64,000 nt of DNA from NCBI GenBank assembly GCA_002213445.1, contig NJIE01000008.1, positions 434,001-498,000 of the forward strand. The letters run 5' to 3'. The translations under genes and the position numbers were made by a program. Origin of the DNA: Xenophilus sp. AP218F. Lineage in GTDB: Bacteria > Pseudomonadota > Gammaproteobacteria > Burkholderiales > Chromobacteriaceae. Below, one piece after another: positions 37,230-43,655 of the stretch. The notes under the pieces are model-generated. The model saw only the letters and a list, made by a program, of their open reading frames with translations. It made no database searches and had not been told where the DNA came from. Position 1 is the first letter of the stretch. Each line of letters opens with the position of its first letter.

Positions 37230-38066
37230 TTACGGCACCAGGTACTGATCGCAGTCCGGCAAGGGTTTATCCGGCGCGTAAACGCCGGCGGCGGCGTCAA
37301 AGCGCAGCGTTCTGTGGAAGCTGCAGGCCGGGTCCAGCACCGTGACGATATCGCGCTTTTTCAACTGCCCGCGCGCCAGCGAATCGCTTGTGCGGGAGAC
37401 GTGGCCGGGGAAGCTGGTGGCGCGGGTTTGATAAACCAGGCGCGGAAAGCCCGAGGATACTTGCTTGTCCAGGCTGATCCGGCTGGAAAACTCGTATTCG
37501 TCGTGGCACGCGCCGCGCCGCTGCCGGTAATCGCGGTCGGAGAAGCAGGCGCGTATCAGCGCGCTGCCGTAAACGGGCAAGGAGAGCGCCTCGCGCAGCG
37601 CCAGGCCTTTGCCGTCCGGATACACGCGCAGCAAACGCAGGATGCTGGCGCTGGCTCCGCCGCCGGAATACATGGCGTTTGCGTTTTCCTCCACGCCCAC
37701 CAGCACGCCCTGCGCCGCATCGCCCAGCGCCAGCAGGCGCGGCCACAGGGCCAGCCGGCTGGGCATCGCTTCCGTTTTCAGGTCCGCCAATTCAAACCGC
37801 GCGTCGCTGTCCTTGCCGCGCAGCCTGAGGAGGTTGAGCCGCGGCGGCGCGTCGTCTTGCTGGTAAACCAGCTCCACGCAAAAGTCCTTGCCCGGCGTGC
37901 AGGCTTGCTCCGAAACCGCCGGCTGGCCTTGGTAGCTTATCGCCAACGGCAAGATGGCGTTGCCCGCCTTGTCCGCGCCGGGCGTCACGGTTGCCGGCGC
38001 AGCGGCCAGAGGGGAGAGCGGGATGGCCGACAGCGTCAGCGCGAGGAAAATATTTTTCAGTGTCAT
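37230..38066 (-). CDS. Hypothetical exported protein
   Basis: Protein of 278 residues not recognised. A signal peptide is clear (MTLKNIFLALTLSAIPLSPLAA, about residues 1-22). The mature part has six cysteines (for example ACTPGKDFCVEL, LIRACFSDRDYRQRRGACHDEYEF, DPACSFH and PDCDQY), probably forming disulfides, and no membrane segment. The start at 38066 is chosen for the signal peptide; an earlier start 14 codons upstream would spoil it. It lies 168 bases upstream of the CVNH gene on the same strand, so the two secreted proteins might be functionally linked. Confidence 0.7.
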   Translation of the reverse strand: MTLKNIFLALTLSAIPLSPLAAAPATVTPGADKAGNAILPLAISYQGQPAVSEQACTPGKDFCVELVYQQDDAPPRLNLLRLRGKDSDARFELADLKTEAMPSRLALWPRLLALGDAAQGVLVGVEENANAMYSGGGASASILRLLRVYPDGKGLALREALSLPVYGSALIRACFSDRDYRQRRGACHDEYEFSSRISLDKQVSSGFPRLVYQTRATSFPGHVSRTSDSLARGQLKKRDIVTVLDPACSFHRTLRFDAAAGVYAPDKPLPDCDQYLVP

Positions 38067-38214
38067 CGGTTTGGTTTTCCGGCAATGGAATGGCCAGTCT
38101 GGGGGCAAAACGGCGATCGTCGCAAACGAGCATGCGGCGACGAACTCGACGCGCGGATGGCGGCCCGTCTTGCTGCTTGATACAATTCATTGTCATAATT
38201 ATTGGGCGCTGATC

Positions 38215-39228
38215 ATGATTATAAAGTCCGCAGACTCACGACTGCCACATATCCAGCAACTCATGCAGCTGCAATCCCGGCCAGACCTCAGCGACAAGCA
38301 GCGCGAGCTGCTGGCAAGGGAAATCCACGCCATCCAGAAAGGCGAGCAAGGCGAGCGCAATGGCGCCTATGAAATCGACTTTCACCTGAAAGACACCCAG
38401 AACTGGGCGGTGATCCACGATTTGCGCATCGAGCACCAAGGCCGGGCTGCGCAGATCGATCATTTGCTGATCAACCGGATGCTGGAAATCTACGTGGTGG
38501 AAACCAAGAATTTCAACGCCAACCTGGAAATCAACGAAGCCGGCGAATTCACCGCCTGGTACAACAAGACTCCGCGCGGCATTCCCAGCCCGCTGGCTCA
38601 GAATGAAAAGCATATCGCGGTGCTGGAGCGGCTATGCCAGGCGCTGCCATTGCCCACCCGGCTGGGCATCAAGCTGATGCCCTCGTTTTTCAATGTGGTG
38701 ATGGTGGGCAACCAGCAGCGCATTACCCGCCCCAAGCGGCTGGACACCAAAAACGTGATCAAGGTGGAAAAGATCAAGGAATGGGTGACCCGTAGCGACG
38801 ACGTCGGCTTCGCGCGCGCCATTTCCGGGCTGGTCAAGATCGTCAGCAGCGAAACCATGCTGGAGCTGGCCCAGGCCATCGCCAATCAGCACCTGCCGCT
38901 GAAACACGATTATTGCGCCCGTTTCGGCATTCCGCGCGTCGCGCCGGCAGCGCCGGCCCCCGCGCCCGTGGCGCAAGCGCCCGCGCAACCGGCGGCGGAG
39001 CCGGCAGGCAAGCTGACCAGTTCAAAACTGGCGGCCAAGCTGGGGTTCAAAAACACCCAGGCCTTGATCGAACAGCTGCTGGCGCAAGGCTATCTGGAAA
39101 TGGCGGAGGGCAAGGCCAGGCTCACCGAGTCCGGCAAGAATGCGGGAGGGGAATTCAAGCTCAGTCCCAAGTTCGGGCCATATTTCATGTGGCCGGAAAG
39201 CCTGGAGTTGAACGCCAAAGTCGAATGA
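38215..39228 (+). CDS. NERD-domain nuclease-like protein
   Basis: Protein of 337 residues. Residues about 40-160 form a NERD domain, a PD-(D/E)XK-type nuclease-related fold: GERNGAYEIDFHL, the aspartate in AAQIDHLLINRM and the ExK pair in YVVETKNFNANLEI, all apparently intact. An Ala/Pro-rich linker (about 243-265) is followed by a winged-helix-like part (SSKLAAKLGFKNTQALIEQLLAQGYLEM...KARLTESGK), resembling domains that bind DNA. No signal or membrane segment. It stands alone. NERD proteins are suspected to act in DNA processing or defence, but the role is unproven. Confidence 0.82.
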   Translation: MIIKSADSRLPHIQQLMQLQSRPDLSDKQRELLAREIHAIQKGEQGERNGAYEIDFHLKDTQNWAVIHDLRIEHQGRAAQIDHLLINRMLEIYVVETKNFNANLEINEAGEFTAWYNKTPRGIPSPLAQNEKHIAVLERLCQALPLPTRLGIKLMPSFFNVVMVGNQQRITRPKRLDTKNVIKVEKIKEWVTRSDDVGFARAISGLVKIVSSETMLELAQAIANQHLPLKHDYCARFGIPRVAPAAPAPAPVAQAPAQPAAEPAGKLTSSKLAAKLGFKNTQALIEQLLAQGYLEMAEGKARLTESGKNAGGEFKLSPKFGPYFMWPESLELNAKVE

Positions 39229-39348: not shown

Positions 39349-39825
39349 TCAGTGCTGATGCCCGTGTTCGCCGTGCACGTGCTGGTGGGCGATTTCTTCG
39401 GCTGTCGCCTCGCGCACGTTCAGAACCGTCAAGGCGAAGCGCAGGGTTTTGCCGCACAGCGGGTGATTGCCGTCCAGCAATACCGTGGGGCCTTTGATCT
39501 TGGTGACAAAGTAGTAGCGCGGCTGGCCGTCCGGGCCCATGCGCTGCAGCTGGCCGCCCACCTTCACGCCCGGCGGGAAATCGGCCTTGGGCATGGTGGT
39601 GACCAGCGCTTCGTCGCGCTCGCCGAAGGCGTCTTCGGTAGCCAGCTCGATCGTGGTTTTGAAGCCGGCCTCCTGGCCTTCCAGCGCCGCTTCCAGCTTG
39701 TCGAAAAGATTGTCGTAGCCGCCGTGCAGGTAAGCGACGGGGTGCTTGCCGTCGTCGTACACATTGCCCTGGCTGTCGGTGACTTTCATGCGCAGGGTAA
39801 CGGCGGTGTTTTCGGTGATTTTCAT
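39349..39825 (-). CDS. slyD: FKBP-type peptidyl-prolyl isomerase SlyD
   Basis: Folding catalyst and metallochaperone of 158 residues. Residues 1-65 and 125-145 form the FKBP domain (YLHGGYDNLFDKLEAALEGQEAG); the inserted IF domain lies between (AFGERDEALVTTM...). The C-terminus is histidine-rich (QHVHGEHGHQH), suited to nickel binding, but much shorter than in E. coli. The start MKIT is conserved; a start three codons upstream is possible, and no strong ribosome binding site is visible. Confidence 0.93.
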   Translation of the reverse strand: MKITENTAVTLRMKVTDSQGNVYDDGKHPVAYLHGGYDNLFDKLEAALEGQEAGFKTTIELATEDAFGERDEALVTTMPKADFPPGVKVGGQLQRMGPDGQPRYYFVTKIKGPTVLLDGNHPLCGKTLRFALTVLNVREATAEEIAHQHVHGEHGHQH

Positions 39826-39998
39826 GATGAGCAATGGCGAAATAATCGGAGGCGGGAAGGGTGGCAGCTTGGCGGGGCAGTGTCAACCAGCAGGCGATAC
39901 GGCGCGGGCACGGCGATAGCGGCATAGGGTGCAATACTCGGCCGCCATCCCCTCCATGCGGCCTACCCCCTCGGCCGGGCATCGCGCCGCGTTAGGCC

Positions 39999-40057
39999 GG
40001 TGCGACGCCCGGCGGATAATGTCGAGCGTGGAGAAGGCCGAAGCCGGGTGTCGCACC
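39999..40057. repeat. Inverted repeat, 15-base arms
   Basis: Arms GGTGCGACGCCCGGC (39999-40013) and GCCGGGTGTCGCACC (40043-40057), one mismatch, 29-base loop. It resembles dispersed REP-like elements. Confidence 0.75.
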
Positions 40058-40129
40058 CTACGAGCGCGCCGTACGGCCGTAAAATGATTAGATTATATGT
40101 GATGCGCCGATATCCCGTGGCGCGAGCCT

Positions 40130-40229
40130 TTCAAAATGATGCGCCCCAGGCGCTGCCGAACTCGCAACGCGCTAACGTCGCGTCGCTCGAACAGGCGGCA
40201 GCTTAAAACCTGGAGCGCATCATTTTGAA
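40130..40229. repeat. Long inverted repeat, 21-base arms
   Basis: Arms at 40130-40150 and 40209-40229 (TTCAAAATGATGCGCCCCAGG against its complement) match at 20 of 21 positions. Inside, GCTGCC (40152-40157) pairs with GGCAGC (40197-40202). The 100-base unit could fold as a long hairpin and has the look of a MITE or REP-pair. Confidence 0.8.
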
Positions 40230-40265
40230 CGGGGTTTCGAAGCGCCCCGGGTCGCCTTTTCTTTG

Positions 40266-40299
40266 GGTTCTTTCTTTTGGCGAAGCAAAAGAAAGAACC
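40266..40299. repeat. Perfect inverted repeat, 14-base arms
   Basis: GGTTCTTTCTTTTG / CAAAAGAAAGAACC with a GCGAAG loop. The A/T-rich arms make it unlike an ordinary terminator. Confidence 0.8.
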
Positions 40300-40434
40300 T
40301 CGCCGGCGGGGCGAGACCCGCGAAGTTTCGTTTTTCAATGATACTAGCTGAATCTGCGTGCTTACTGCTTGGGCTTGGTAGCGCGGCCAAAACAGGCTTA
40401 CCCCGGTCATCCAAACTATTGTACTTGCATGTTC

Positions 40435-40513
40435 GGCGGAATGCCCCGATAAAATCGTGGCTTCCGCCCTACGCGACAGATGTAGGGCGGAAGCCCCGTA
40501 GAGGCGTTCCGCC
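40435..40513. repeat. Nested inverted repeat
   Basis: Inner perfect 13-base arms GCTTCCGCCCTAC (40460-40472) and GTAGGGCGGAAGC (40482-40494). Outer GGCGGAA (40435-40441) pairs with TTCCGCC (40507-40513). Confidence 0.75.
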
Positions 40514-40605
40514 TCGATGCGCAACGAACGATATCCGGTGTATGCGGTGTTTTACGATCATCGTTAGACTTCACAAGTACAAATCAATATATGGTGTTAT
40601 TGGAA

Positions 40606-41517
40606 TTATTTACCCTGAAGGATTCCTGTGTCAAACAATGCGTTATAACTAGAGATAACTGCTTTGGAAAATAATTCACATATTACAGCGATTGATGCTG
40701 CATTTGAAGATTCATCTGTTGGTTTTGCCGAATGAAACCAACTGTGAGCCCCAGGTGAATTTCCGATAAGTTTTTTGAAAATTACAGCTTCTTTTTCTCC
40801 CCTGGTTGAGAAATAATCAGCATATTTATAGTTCCATTCATTACGTGTTTGGCTTGGGATTTTCCATTGATTTCCTTCGAAAAGTTTAATGTATTTTGCT
40901 AATTCAGGCCATCCCTTTTCATTATTAATACGCTTCATTATTTCCTGTGCATTGCTCCAGGCTGCTGCATGAGGTTTTTCACCTATTGAATCAAAAACGA
41001 TCTTTCCACCTCGTGGCTTCCCTATGAAATTGTTTGGGTTGGTATTTGTGAACTGACTAATTTTAGCAGGATCTCCTTTAATTCTTGCTATGAGTTGCTT
41101 CTGATCGTTTGAGTCCAATCCGAGAGGAATTTTATCTAACATTCTAGATATTTCATTTATTGCAAAGAAAGAACAATAGTAAGCGGTGACTAATAACCAG
41201 GGGGAGCTAATTGATGATTCTTTTGCTTTTTCAACATTGGAATATTGATTTGATACTCGACGTGAGCCCATTACAAATTCACATATTCTGGACTCGGTCA
41301 GAGTGGCTCCATTTATGTCAGGCAGCGCTGATGAGCCTTCGTAGATAGCAAATGAACTATTTGAAATTACTTCTATTTCAATGGAAGGCTCGTTTAGTAT
41401 CGCAAACTTTAAGCCATCTTTATAATTTACGTTCCCGAAATTTCTCCTATTTGTATTTTCTAATAAGGTTGCAACTTTCTTTGTGCAAATACTTTGCAAG
41501 TGATCATGTATTCTCAT
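40606..41517 (-). CDS. Protein of unknown function, partner of DGQHR protein
   Basis: A 303-residue protein I do not recognise. It is AT-rich in codon use, unlike the neighbouring genes. A long hydrophobic helix occurs at about 106-127 (WLLVTAYYCSFFAINEISRML), and an RNEWNY motif at 225-230. That helix plus Rx4Y-like motif is loosely reminiscent of HEPN-type RNases, but this is weak. A second helical segment closes the protein (AASIAVICELFSKAVISSYN). It starts 2 bases after the stop of the DGQHR gene, so the two are translationally coupled. It may be an effector for the DGQHR protein (inference). Confidence 0.75.
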   Translation of the reverse strand: MRIHDHLQSICTKKVATLLENTNRRNFGNVNYKDGLKFAILNEPSIEIEVISNSSFAIYEGSSALPDINGATLTESRICEFVMGSRRVSNQYSNVEKAKESSISSPWLLVTAYYCSFFAINEISRMLDKIPLGLDSNDQKQLIARIKGDPAKISQFTNTNPNNFIGKPRGGKIVFDSIGEKPHAAAWSNAQEIMKRINNEKGWPELAKYIKLFEGNQWKIPSQTRNEWNYKYADYFSTRGEKEAVIFKKLIGNSPGAHSWFHSAKPTDESSNAASIAVICELFSKAVISSYNALFDTGILQGK

Positions 41518-41519
41518 GA

Positions 41520-42503
41520 TTAAAATAGATCGGAAGGTATTTTTGATTTTCTATCTATGTCAAGTTTGTCAATAATATCTTTCTCTAAGTTTCTTATTGC
41601 TTCATCATTGCTACCTGAGTGGAGGTCAAAATTTATTTTTTGAAGAGATTCAAAGGTGAATGAAAAAGATTCTTTCTTGAAGTTTCTTTTGTAGAAATAA
41701 GTATTCTCACAAACTTTTTCAAAAACTCTGAATATGGCTTGAAAAAAGGCTGATTGAGAGATTTTATTGGTGGCATCCATCTCTTCAAGGTTTTCATACA
41801 CCCCGAATAAATAATTTTTCAGAAGGGTTTTTTTTCCATCATAGTCAAGGTCTTTCATGGTTTCTGTGGAAAGTACTTTGTTGATTGCTATTTCAAATGG
41901 GACATGTGAAAGGTACCCTGGTCCCTTTTGTTCTGCGCTCATTTTTCCACATAGAACCGAATCTGCTTCAGAGTTTAAATCCTTAAAGAGGCGTAATCTA
42001 ATATCATCAACTGACTCGCTCTCCACAAGGAAGCGTGTCAACTCAATCCGAAGTGTTTTAGGAACACCTTTTTGAGTTGAATTAATATCTACAAAGTATT
42101 GAATTTCGTCAATTAAATTTAAATTTGTAAGAATGCATACGGGGAGTTTTATGTTGTCAACCCCCGATTTGTAAGCTTTGTATGCTCCAAAGAGACGGTG
42201 CTGCCCATCAATTACAAGAAGTGAGCCATTCTCGTTATTTATTTCAAGCTCTTCTTTTTCCTCGTCGTAGAATATTCCAGCTTCTGGTTGAGCGCTGAGT
42301 ATAATGGCGCCAGGAATTATTTTTTGCTCAAAATACTTTGCGATTTTATTTGCACGAGTTTCTTCTAGCTGGCGTTGAAATCCCTCTTCAGGATTTTCAC
42401 TTACGCGCTCTACACGTGAAAGGTTGAATAGTGTATCTGGAGCCATCGCGGTAAGATAGAACCCTACATTATTTCTGCTTAGATTAAATGCTTTAACTCG
42501 CAT
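41520..42503 (-). CDS. DGQHR-domain protein
   Basis: Protein of 327 residues with the DGQHR motif at 99-103 (LLVIDGQHRLFGAYKA). It shares the fold found in DndB-like and related proteins linked to DNA modification or defence. The flanking FVDINSTQKGVPKTLRIEL (a region that in this family follows DGQHR) is also present. The start at 42503 has a strong AAGGGG ribosome binding site; the ORF could extend 15 codons upstream into the nrdB terminator. It is AT-rich (one 60-base line that I counted has 16 G+C), signalling transfer. The gene pair sits between nrdB and slyD. Confidence 0.88.
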   Translation of the reverse strand: MRVKAFNLSRNNVGFYLTAMAPDTLFNLSRVERVSENPEEGFQRQLEETRANKIAKYFEQKIIPGAIILSAQPEAGIFYDEEKEELEINNENGSLLVIDGQHRLFGAYKAYKSGVDNIKLPVCILTNLNLIDEIQYFVDINSTQKGVPKTLRIELTRFLVESESVDDIRLRLFKDLNSEADSVLCGKMSAEQKGPGYLSHVPFEIAINKVLSTETMKDLDYDGKKTLLKNYLFGVYENLEEMDATNKISQSAFFQAIFRVFEKVCENTYFYKRNFKKESFSFTFESLQKINFDLHSGSNDEAIRNLEKDIIDKLDIDRKSKIPSDLF

Positions 42504-42511
42504 AGTTTTCC

Positions 42512-42544
42512 CCTTATAAAAAGGCACACCGAAGTGTGCCTTTT
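42512..42544 (-). terminator. Intrinsic terminator of nrdB
   Basis: Stem AAAAGGCACAC / GTGTGCCTTTT with a CGAA loop (TTCG on the minus strand) and flanking T. It separates nrdB from the AT-rich cassette. Confidence 0.92.
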
Positions 42545-42575
42545 GCATGAAAACCTGTCAACGATCCATGTCAAA

Positions 42576-43655
42576 TCAATCCCAGCTCAACGCCCCGCCA
42601 GTCTGATACTCGGTGACGCGAGTCTCAAAGAAGTTCTTCTCCTTCTTCAAATCGATCATCTCGCTCATCCACGGGAAGGGGTTGTTCACGCCCGGGAACA
42701 GCTGATCCAGGCCGATCTGCTGCATGCGGCGGTTGGCGATGAAGCGCAGGTATTCCTTGAACATGGCGGCGTTGAGGCCCAGCACGCCGCGCGGCATGGT
42801 GTCTTCGGCGTAGGCGTATTCCAGCTCCACCGCGTGCTTGAACAGCTCGGTGATTTCGGCCTTGAAGCTTTCGGTCCAGATTTCCGGCTGTTCCAGCTTG
42901 ATGGTATTGATCAGGTCGATGCCGAAATTGCAGTGCATGGACTCGTCGCGCAGGATGTACTGGTATTGCTCTGCCGCGCCGGTCATCTTGTTCTGGCGGC
43001 CCAGCGCCAGGATCTGCACGAAGCCGACGTAGAAGAACAGGCCTTCCATGATGCAGGCGAACACGATCAGGCTTTTGAGCAGCTTCTGGTCGTTTTCCAG
43101 GGTGCCGGTCTTGAAGGCCGGGTTGCACAGCACGTCGATGAAGGGGATCAGGAACTCGTCCTTGTCGCGGATGGACTTGATCTCGTGATAGGCGTTGAAC
43201 ACTTCGCCTTCGTCCAGACCCAGGCTTTCCACGATGTACTGGTAGGCGTGGGTGTGGATGGCTTCGTCAAAGGCCTGGCGCAGCAGGAACTGGCGGCATT
43301 CCGGGCTGGTGATCTGGCGATAGGTGCCCAGCACGATGTTGTTGGCGGCCAGGCTGTCGGCGGTGACAAAGAAGCCGAGGTTGCGCTTGACGATGCGCAT
43401 TTCGTCTTCGGTCAGCTGGCCGGTTTTCCACTGTTCGATGTCGCGCTGCATGTTCACTTCCTGCGGCATCCAGTGGTTGGCGCATTGCGCCAGGTACTTT
43501 TCCCAGGCCCACTTGTGCTTGAACGGCACCAACTGGTTGACGTCGGTGGTGCCGTTGATCACTTTCTTGTCCACCACGTTGACGCGGGCGGTGCCGTGGG
43601 CGTCCATGGAGTTGGCCGCGGCGGCGGGGGCGATGGTGTCTTCAAAATTCAGCAT
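42576..43655 (-). CDS. nrdB: Ribonucleotide reductase class Ia, small subunit
   Basis: Houses the diiron centre and tyrosyl radical used to make deoxyribonucleotides. In the 359-residue protein Asp100 (FFVTADS), Glu131 and His134 (EAIHTHAY) are likely metal ligands and Tyr138 is the radical tyrosine, with [11 protein letters not shown]-like second ligand set ([12 protein letters not shown]). The C-terminus ends in a peptide for binding NrdA. It lies downstream of nrdA but with three small genes in between. Confidence 0.97.

Follow-up and report, generated by a model that had tools for sequence, protein, structure and literature searches.

A two-gene cassette of a DGQHR protein and a predicted HEPN-fold partner at a variable site beside nrdB: a candidate anti-phage system

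In a 64,000-nucleotide stretch of the genome of Xenophilus sp. AP218F (contig NJIE01000008.1, positions 434,001 to 498,000; hereafter the window), two adjacent genes form a compact, AT-rich cassette. Gene 1 encodes a DGQHR/DndB-like protein and gene 2 a partner from a new family with a predicted HEPN fold (Table 1). Both open reading frames (ORFs) named in a preliminary description of this DNA are present with the two-base spacing claimed for them, a spacing that must place the ribosome-binding region of gene 2 inside the 3' end of gene 1 and that suggests translational coupling. The G+C content of the cassette (40606-42503) is 36.2%, as compared with 64.7% for the whole window and 64.4% and 65.1% for the 10-kb flanks, and is the minimum among 1243 windows of equal size; the 44 such windows with less than 50% G+C form one consecutive run around the cassette (starts 39551 to 41701). 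The preliminary description had pointed to low G+C from 60-base lines with 16 and with 24 G+C, and such lines do exist. A ribosome-binding-like GGGG precedes the start codon adopted for gene 1 (TATAAGGGGAAAACTATG). An alternative in-frame ATG upstream at 42548, which would give 342 amino acids (aa), lies just 5' of the terminator hairpin of the neighbouring gene, which we take to be nrdB, and translation from this codon would therefore cross the hairpin.

Table 1. Features of the cassette and its borders, in window coordinates.
Feature	Position	Strand	Remarks
Gene 1, DGQHR/DndB-like protein, 327 aa	41520..42503	minus	ORF from ATG at 42503
Gene 2, predicted HEPN-fold partner, 303 aa	40606..41517	minus	ORF; new family
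Intergenic spacer	41518..41519		2 bases
nrdB (presumed)	42576..43655	minus	host gene flanking the insertion site, outside the cassette
nrdB terminator hairpin	42519..42544	minus	AAAAGGCACAC-ttcg-GTGTGCCTTTT
Palindrome cluster	40127-40498		far side of the cassette from nrdB

The assignment of gene 1 to the DGQHR proteins is well founded: it scores 113 bits against TIGR03187 (cut-off 58.85) and also exceeds the cut-off of PF14072, and it falls far below those of TIGR04172 (71.9 of 450 bits) and the DpdB model (43.1 of 300 bits). By its predicted fold it belongs to the ParB/sulfiredoxin (Srx) superfamily, with a ParB/Srx-type nucleotide-binding domain at residues about 8-146 and a helical remainder. 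The invariant residues are Q43-R44, V97-IDGQHR103, F137 and N141, the DGQHR pentapeptide being invariant in all 33 aligned rows. Through QR and DGQHR, gene 1 would bind a nucleoside triphosphate (NTP), and it probably hydrolyses it. In the PDB the DGQHR profile found only designed helical proteins (E 0.022-0.36), and among PADLOC 2023 models the DGQHR rows match only those of DpdB/DndB. A DNA-modifying enzyme was considered and rejected, there being no such domain in either cassette protein. A second match to the DndB model in the same genome (C6:6983-7288) is a fragment.

Gene 2 is recognised by fold and not by family models. As a single sequence it matched nothing in Pfam, NCBIfam, PADLOC, PHROGs or the genome contig collection, and gave only chance-level matches in the PDB (best E 1.5); its alignment found nothing in the viral contig collection or the PDB, and Foldseek against the PDB and viral models returned no significant match. 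Pfam HEPN families were matched by 0 of 31 family members at E up to 0.1. Members of the alignment gave scattered single weak matches to unrelated Pfam and NCBIfam families, one of the 31 gave a weak PDC-S11 match in PADLOC 2023 (E 0.026), and PADLOC 2023 did not yield model matches for both genes. In the predicted structure, an HEPN-like core lies inside residues 77-293, and its four-helix fold places the protein in the HEPN superfamily. The HEPN resemblance suspected in the preliminary description is hence supported by the predicted fold but not by the motif, as gene 2 has Rx4Y instead of the Rx4-6H of canonical HEPN RNases: R225-N-x-x-(N/Q)-Y230 occurs in all 32 rows, with no histidine at the motif position. 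Invariant or near-invariant are W107, Y113, Y114, H183, W187, R225, N226, N229 and Y230. H183 and R225 are kept in 32 of 32 rows, a combination that matches the alternative-site HEPN proteins of AF0298/AbiV type, defined as a retained arginine plus a conserved histidine N-terminal to the motif and judged here from sequence positions. The active site is likely to be non-canonical, with R225 and H183 replacing Rx4-6H and Y230 possibly taking part, and gene 2 may act as an RNase. The hydrophobic helix noted earlier is probably that of residues 105-126, which the prediction places in the core of a soluble, HEPN-like helical bundle; a membrane toxin was rejected for this reason. Judged by the predicted structure, gene 2 represents an HEPN-like family for which Pfam, NCBIfam and PADLOC have no model, and another residue stands where HEPN RNases usually have their catalytic histidine.

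The two genes are inherited together. Scanning 84,980 species with a DGQHR alignment gave 121 confirmed loci, of which 80 were kept, and 33 of these 80 have a gene 2 homologue. It follows the DGQHR gene on the same strand, in most loci with an overlap or with a gap of up to about 20 bases (exceptions are L011, with 150 bases, and L030, with about 1.7 kb and a shortened DGQHR frame). The pairs come from Proteobacteria, Verrucomicrobiota, Kiritimatiellota, Planctomycetota, Nitrospirota, Myxococcota, Bacillota and Bacteroidota, among others, and their G+C is below that of the rest of the locus in 32 of 33 cases and equal to it in one. Because the first partner model included most of the sequences it found, the profile was rerun with only 14 dnd-free members; it found 26 further loci, including the remote dnd-linked ones but weakly (E 4e-5 to 3e-3), 25 of them downstream of a DGQHR gene and one (L002) a fragment. 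This profile missed the partner in an Acinetobacter phage (L091), the assignment of which is tentative. The gene 1 and gene 2 trees (35 rows each, omitting L028, L030, L033 and L044; the pair alignment omits L028, L033 and L044, which are cut or broken) are congruent, with a Mantel r of 0.886 that 0 of 2000 permutations reached and of 0.888 within a 23-row inner group. Gene 2 evolves faster, the highest identity to the window copy being 36%, versus 63% for gene 1. By tblastn, gene 2 was found in 19 plasmid records (15 Providencia, 4 Burkholderia glumae), which also hold the closest DGQHR relatives (41.8-62.8% identity) of the 26 with any DGQHR match; among six phage records with a DGQHR match, only Pseudomonas PfAC19 matched both genes. 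IMG/VR held five distant DGQHR loci, none with gene 2, and a search of E. coli genomes with the Providencia pair gave no match. The pair is rare near the window's genome: among 101 genomes, its own included, full gene 2 occurs only in its own, and one other genome, from the same taxonomic order, has a fragment. The preliminary description had held that lack of joint conservation or an unrelated metabolic fold would speak against a defence system; the pair is instead conserved, and the predicted folds are ParB/Srx and HEPN-like. A genome of the same class has another DGQHR and HEPN-like pair with a divergent partner and the motif RNAVNYQH (L008, 1096-3029).

A proportion of the pairs is linked to dnd genes. 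With the dnd proteins of L025 and L061 as queries (E <1e-15, within the DNA fetched per locus), dnd-type genes were found at 15 of 33 pair loci versus 0 of 47 partner-less DGQHR loci (Fisher p 1.6e-7). This p-value is indicative only, because the loci share ancestry, Nitrospira accounts for many of the 47, and two of the 15 supplied the queries. L033 is included in the 15 solely through the DndD-like ATPase of a second dnd-type module, and L024, labelled 'nodnd' in the trees, has a homologue of an L025 upstream gene read as part of another dnd-type module. In an Oleispira metagenome-assembled genome (L025) the pair adjoins dndB-dndC-dndD-dndE on the opposite strand, while in one from Desulfurellaceae (L061) it comes last in a compact operon whose other genes are dndC, dndD and a fusion of dndE with an ATPase. 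Compact strings of dndC-dndD-(dndE/HerA-like or similar)-DGQHR-HEPN were seen in L061, L056, L065, L074 and L083 (Binatota, Desulfurellaceae, Bacteroidota), where the pair is a natural candidate for the effector arm. A DndB homologue separate from the pair occurs in seven loci (L021, L022, L023, L025, L026, L030 and L036), that of L025 being supported also by Pfam. A methyltransferase lies beside the pair in L090 and L091: on an Acinetobacter plasmid of this set, genes for a methyltransferase and a NotI-family restriction enzyme precede the pair, and in the Acinetobacter phage a methyltransferase gene does so. In the window's own clade (15 rows; SH-aLRT support 98 in the gene 1 tree and 80 in the gene 2 tree), the fetched DNA is devoid of dnd-type genes, and the invariant residues are retained. 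The window's genome gave no match to DndE or DndC, in a search whose positive control gave no signal either.

The pair is also found on mobile elements and in defence-like neighbourhoods, beside dnd and restriction genes and at a site filled in relatives by defence-type genes. In PfAC19 it lies just beyond the repressor, on the side where three sister phages carry, as annotated, SeAvs3 and IetAS (PfAC11 and PfAC08) or an ATP-binding protein and a cytosine methyltransferase (PfAC20); the publication on these phages (PMC11878078) credits PfAC19 with TA and PfsE only. Among 54 matching Providencia plasmid records, the pair lies between umuD and umuC in 15, and in 22 the two flanks lie close together without it. 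In one such plasmid (L004, 7700-12300) the insert that splits umuD from umuC has stretches 96.5-98.5% identical to Vibrio, Proteus, Alteromonas and Shewanella DNA, two of them under DUF4113 genes, as if umuC were the integration target. A set of 104 proteins (111 had been called) from the surroundings of 17 dnd-free pair loci gave matches to 179 PADLOC models at E 1e-10, and the 25 listed include type I/II restriction enzymes, methyltransferases, AbiEii, PD-Lambda-5 and PD-T4-3; as a control, 52 ORFs of the window matched two, mad3 (E 1.5e-32) and PDC-S69 (E 6.7e-12), one ORF each. This comparison is a crude one, as many models are near-duplicates on the same protein, the gene calls are rough and a one-region control is weak. 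AbiV was found in 1 of 143 genomes and has no similarity to gene 2.

In the window itself, the cassette occupies a variable site. Of the 17 same-genus relatives with an nrdB match, 12 were compared at this site (loci L112-L123, one reaching only to its contig end); similarity to the window stops at 42516-42578 in all 12, and none has the cassette behind nrdB. The 3' side of nrdB is thus a variable insertion site in this genus. The DNA found there is mostly AT-rich and has at least 10 distinct first genes, of which five, in one relative each, were identified: a SMODS nucleotidyltransferase (G005, E 9.4e-48; no PDB match), a reverse transcriptase of UG15-like type (E 2.4e-12), a member of the OLD family (E 1.1e-16), AIPR (E 2.9e-41) and Vsr (E 4.6e-29), the last a repair endonuclease and hence the loosest defence case. 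Six relatives have other ORFs there, the gene being shared by two of them; in the remaining relative, the contig ends in ORFs that resemble those of insertion sequences. AbiTii was not confirmed as the identity of the gene in G014 and G003.

The position of the cassette between an nrdB terminator and palindromes was described correctly. The hairpin is well supported by RNA folding (z -4.78, with 0 of 200 shuffles equally good), is present in 4 of 7 aligned relatives and was not flagged by the terminator scan. Gene 1 starts about 15 nucleotides beyond it, co-directional with nrdB, and the scan listed no promoter-like site in between; expression of the cassette may therefore depend on read-through from the nrd operon. 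In L112, L113, L118 and L120 the hairpin is likewise retained with an inserted gene behind it in the same direction, which would permit such read-through; the distance is 15-37 bases in the window and three of these loci and about 150 in L120. On the far side, a short palindromic piece at about 40482-40513 is a dispersed repeat with six further copies in the genome. Not far from the cassette, an ORF at 37954-39225 resembles, to judge by eye, a NERD nuclease-related domain protein.

How does the cassette compare with known systems? With the DndB/DGQHR proteins (TIGR03187, PF14072) and DpdB, gene 1 shares the DGQHR and QR motifs and the ParB/Srx fold, but it is paired with an HEPN-fold gene and belongs to a clade whose fetched loci showed no dnd-type genes. 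The DndI, SspE and GmrSD-BrxU type (DUF262 DGQQR NTPase plus HNH nuclease), linked to DNA modification (PMC11662687, PMC4619093), likewise couples an effector to a ParB/Srx domain of NTPase type that bears a DGQ(H/Q)R motif; here, however, the effector would be a separate HEPN-fold protein and not an HNH nuclease, and the fold similarity of gene 1 to SspE and BrxU is weak. No sequence relationship was detected between gene 2 and the AF0298 (2hsb) and AbiV HEPN families; gene 2 has additional sequence at its N-terminus and long insertions separating the matched helices. The MAE_28990 and RiboL-PSP HEPN families have Pfam models, unlike the gene 2 family, which matches no Pfam HEPN model. They also keep Rx4-6H, unlike gene 2, according to a table in PMC3710099, where their occurrence in operons with ParB-type genes is already described, as are HEPN RNases at the boundaries of Dnd systems in section 17 of PMC10853773. 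In the open-access literature, judged mostly from listings, we recognised no DGQHR-HEPN pair named as a system.

The analysis shows that the pairing is conserved and the trees of the two proteins are congruent, and it documents their predicted folds and invariant residues together with the mobility and the defence-like contexts of the pair. We regard it as quite probable that the cassette serves defence in some form. Nucleotide use, DNA sensing, inhibition and release, RNase activity and phage resistance are steps that we infer. Our proposal, which we hold to be on balance probable, if only slightly, is that the cassette is a horizontally acquired two-gene anti-phage system. Gene 1 would bind, and probably hydrolyse, NTP through QR and DGQHR and contact DNA, acting like DndI and SspE as an NTP-dependent switch that reads DNA and restraining gene 2 while the DNA appears to be self. 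The nucleotide state of gene 1 would change in response to invading DNA, to DNA with the wrong modification or to a disturbance of the nucleotide pool; the HEPN-fold effector would then be released and cut RNA, and the infected cell would be arrested or killed, halting phage growth. For dnd-linked copies the mark read would be phosphorothioate. The earlier idea of a modifier/effector defence pair is retained as regards the conserved pair and its contexts, but there is no sign of a modifying enzyme, and gene 1 is better described as a nucleotide-dependent switch or sensor. It is possible, if doubtful, that the pair represents a compact immune system outside the named ones, in which an NTP-gated ParB/Srx DNA sensor controls an HEPN RNase with a rewired His/Arg site, and which serves as the effector arm of dnd-type systems and has also escaped as a free cassette that does without its own modification genes.

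HEPN toxins are well known, and the pair may instead be a toxin-antitoxin system, with the DGQHR protein as antitoxin and autorepressor and the HEPN protein as an RNase or RNA-binding toxin, which would stabilise mobile elements and affect phages only as a side effect. Carriage by plasmids and phage speaks for such a system; the gene order, with the antitoxin in front, would be that of several type II pairs (PMC3710099), and PMC12704722 describes DndB as repressing the dnd operon in an ATP-dependent manner. We consider it unlikely, as the pair also occupies a chromosomal site filled in other strains by unrelated defence-type genes and lies beside or inside dnd clusters, where addiction is not an obvious role. 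The DGQHR protein is, moreover, larger than typical antitoxins and better conserved than its partner. It is distinctly unlikely that the pair is a direct DNA-targeting restriction module, with the ParB/Srx protein itself nicking foreign DNA or loading on it and the HEPN-fold protein binding nucleic acid as a subunit that has no catalytic role. PMC10853773 and PMC12839542 report nuclease activity for relatives of the ParB/Srx type, weak GmrSD_N similarity was seen (E 0.057), SspE and BrxU stand low in the fold list, and gene 2 lacks the canonical HEPN histidine; however, no HNH or other recognised nuclease domain was found above cut-off in either protein, and the invariant polar H, R, N and Y of gene 2 favour catalysis or specific binding.

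The repression of dnd by DndB, as given in the literature, and the adjacency of the pair to dnd, and to a methyltransferase in L090 and L091, could also point to a regulator that tunes the activity or expression of dnd or methyltransferase genes and is not itself an effector, stand-alone copies being relics or regulators of other loci. The separate DndB homologues in seven loci and the invariant residues kept in the dnd-free clade make this very unlikely. Least probable of all is neutral or metabolic cargo riding in variable sites by chance, given conserved pairing and invariant residues across several phyla, congruent trees and defence-like contexts.

If the proposed anti-phage system is correct, the co-inherited HEPN-fold partner offers a candidate effector for DndB-like DGQHR proteins and with it a role beyond repression. 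It would link phosphorothioate systems to abortive defence at the RNA level, and the free-standing form would be evidence that no modification system is needed for the module to work. The gene 2 family also bears directly on the idea of an alternative HEPN active site, proposed in 2013 in section 6 of PMC3710099.
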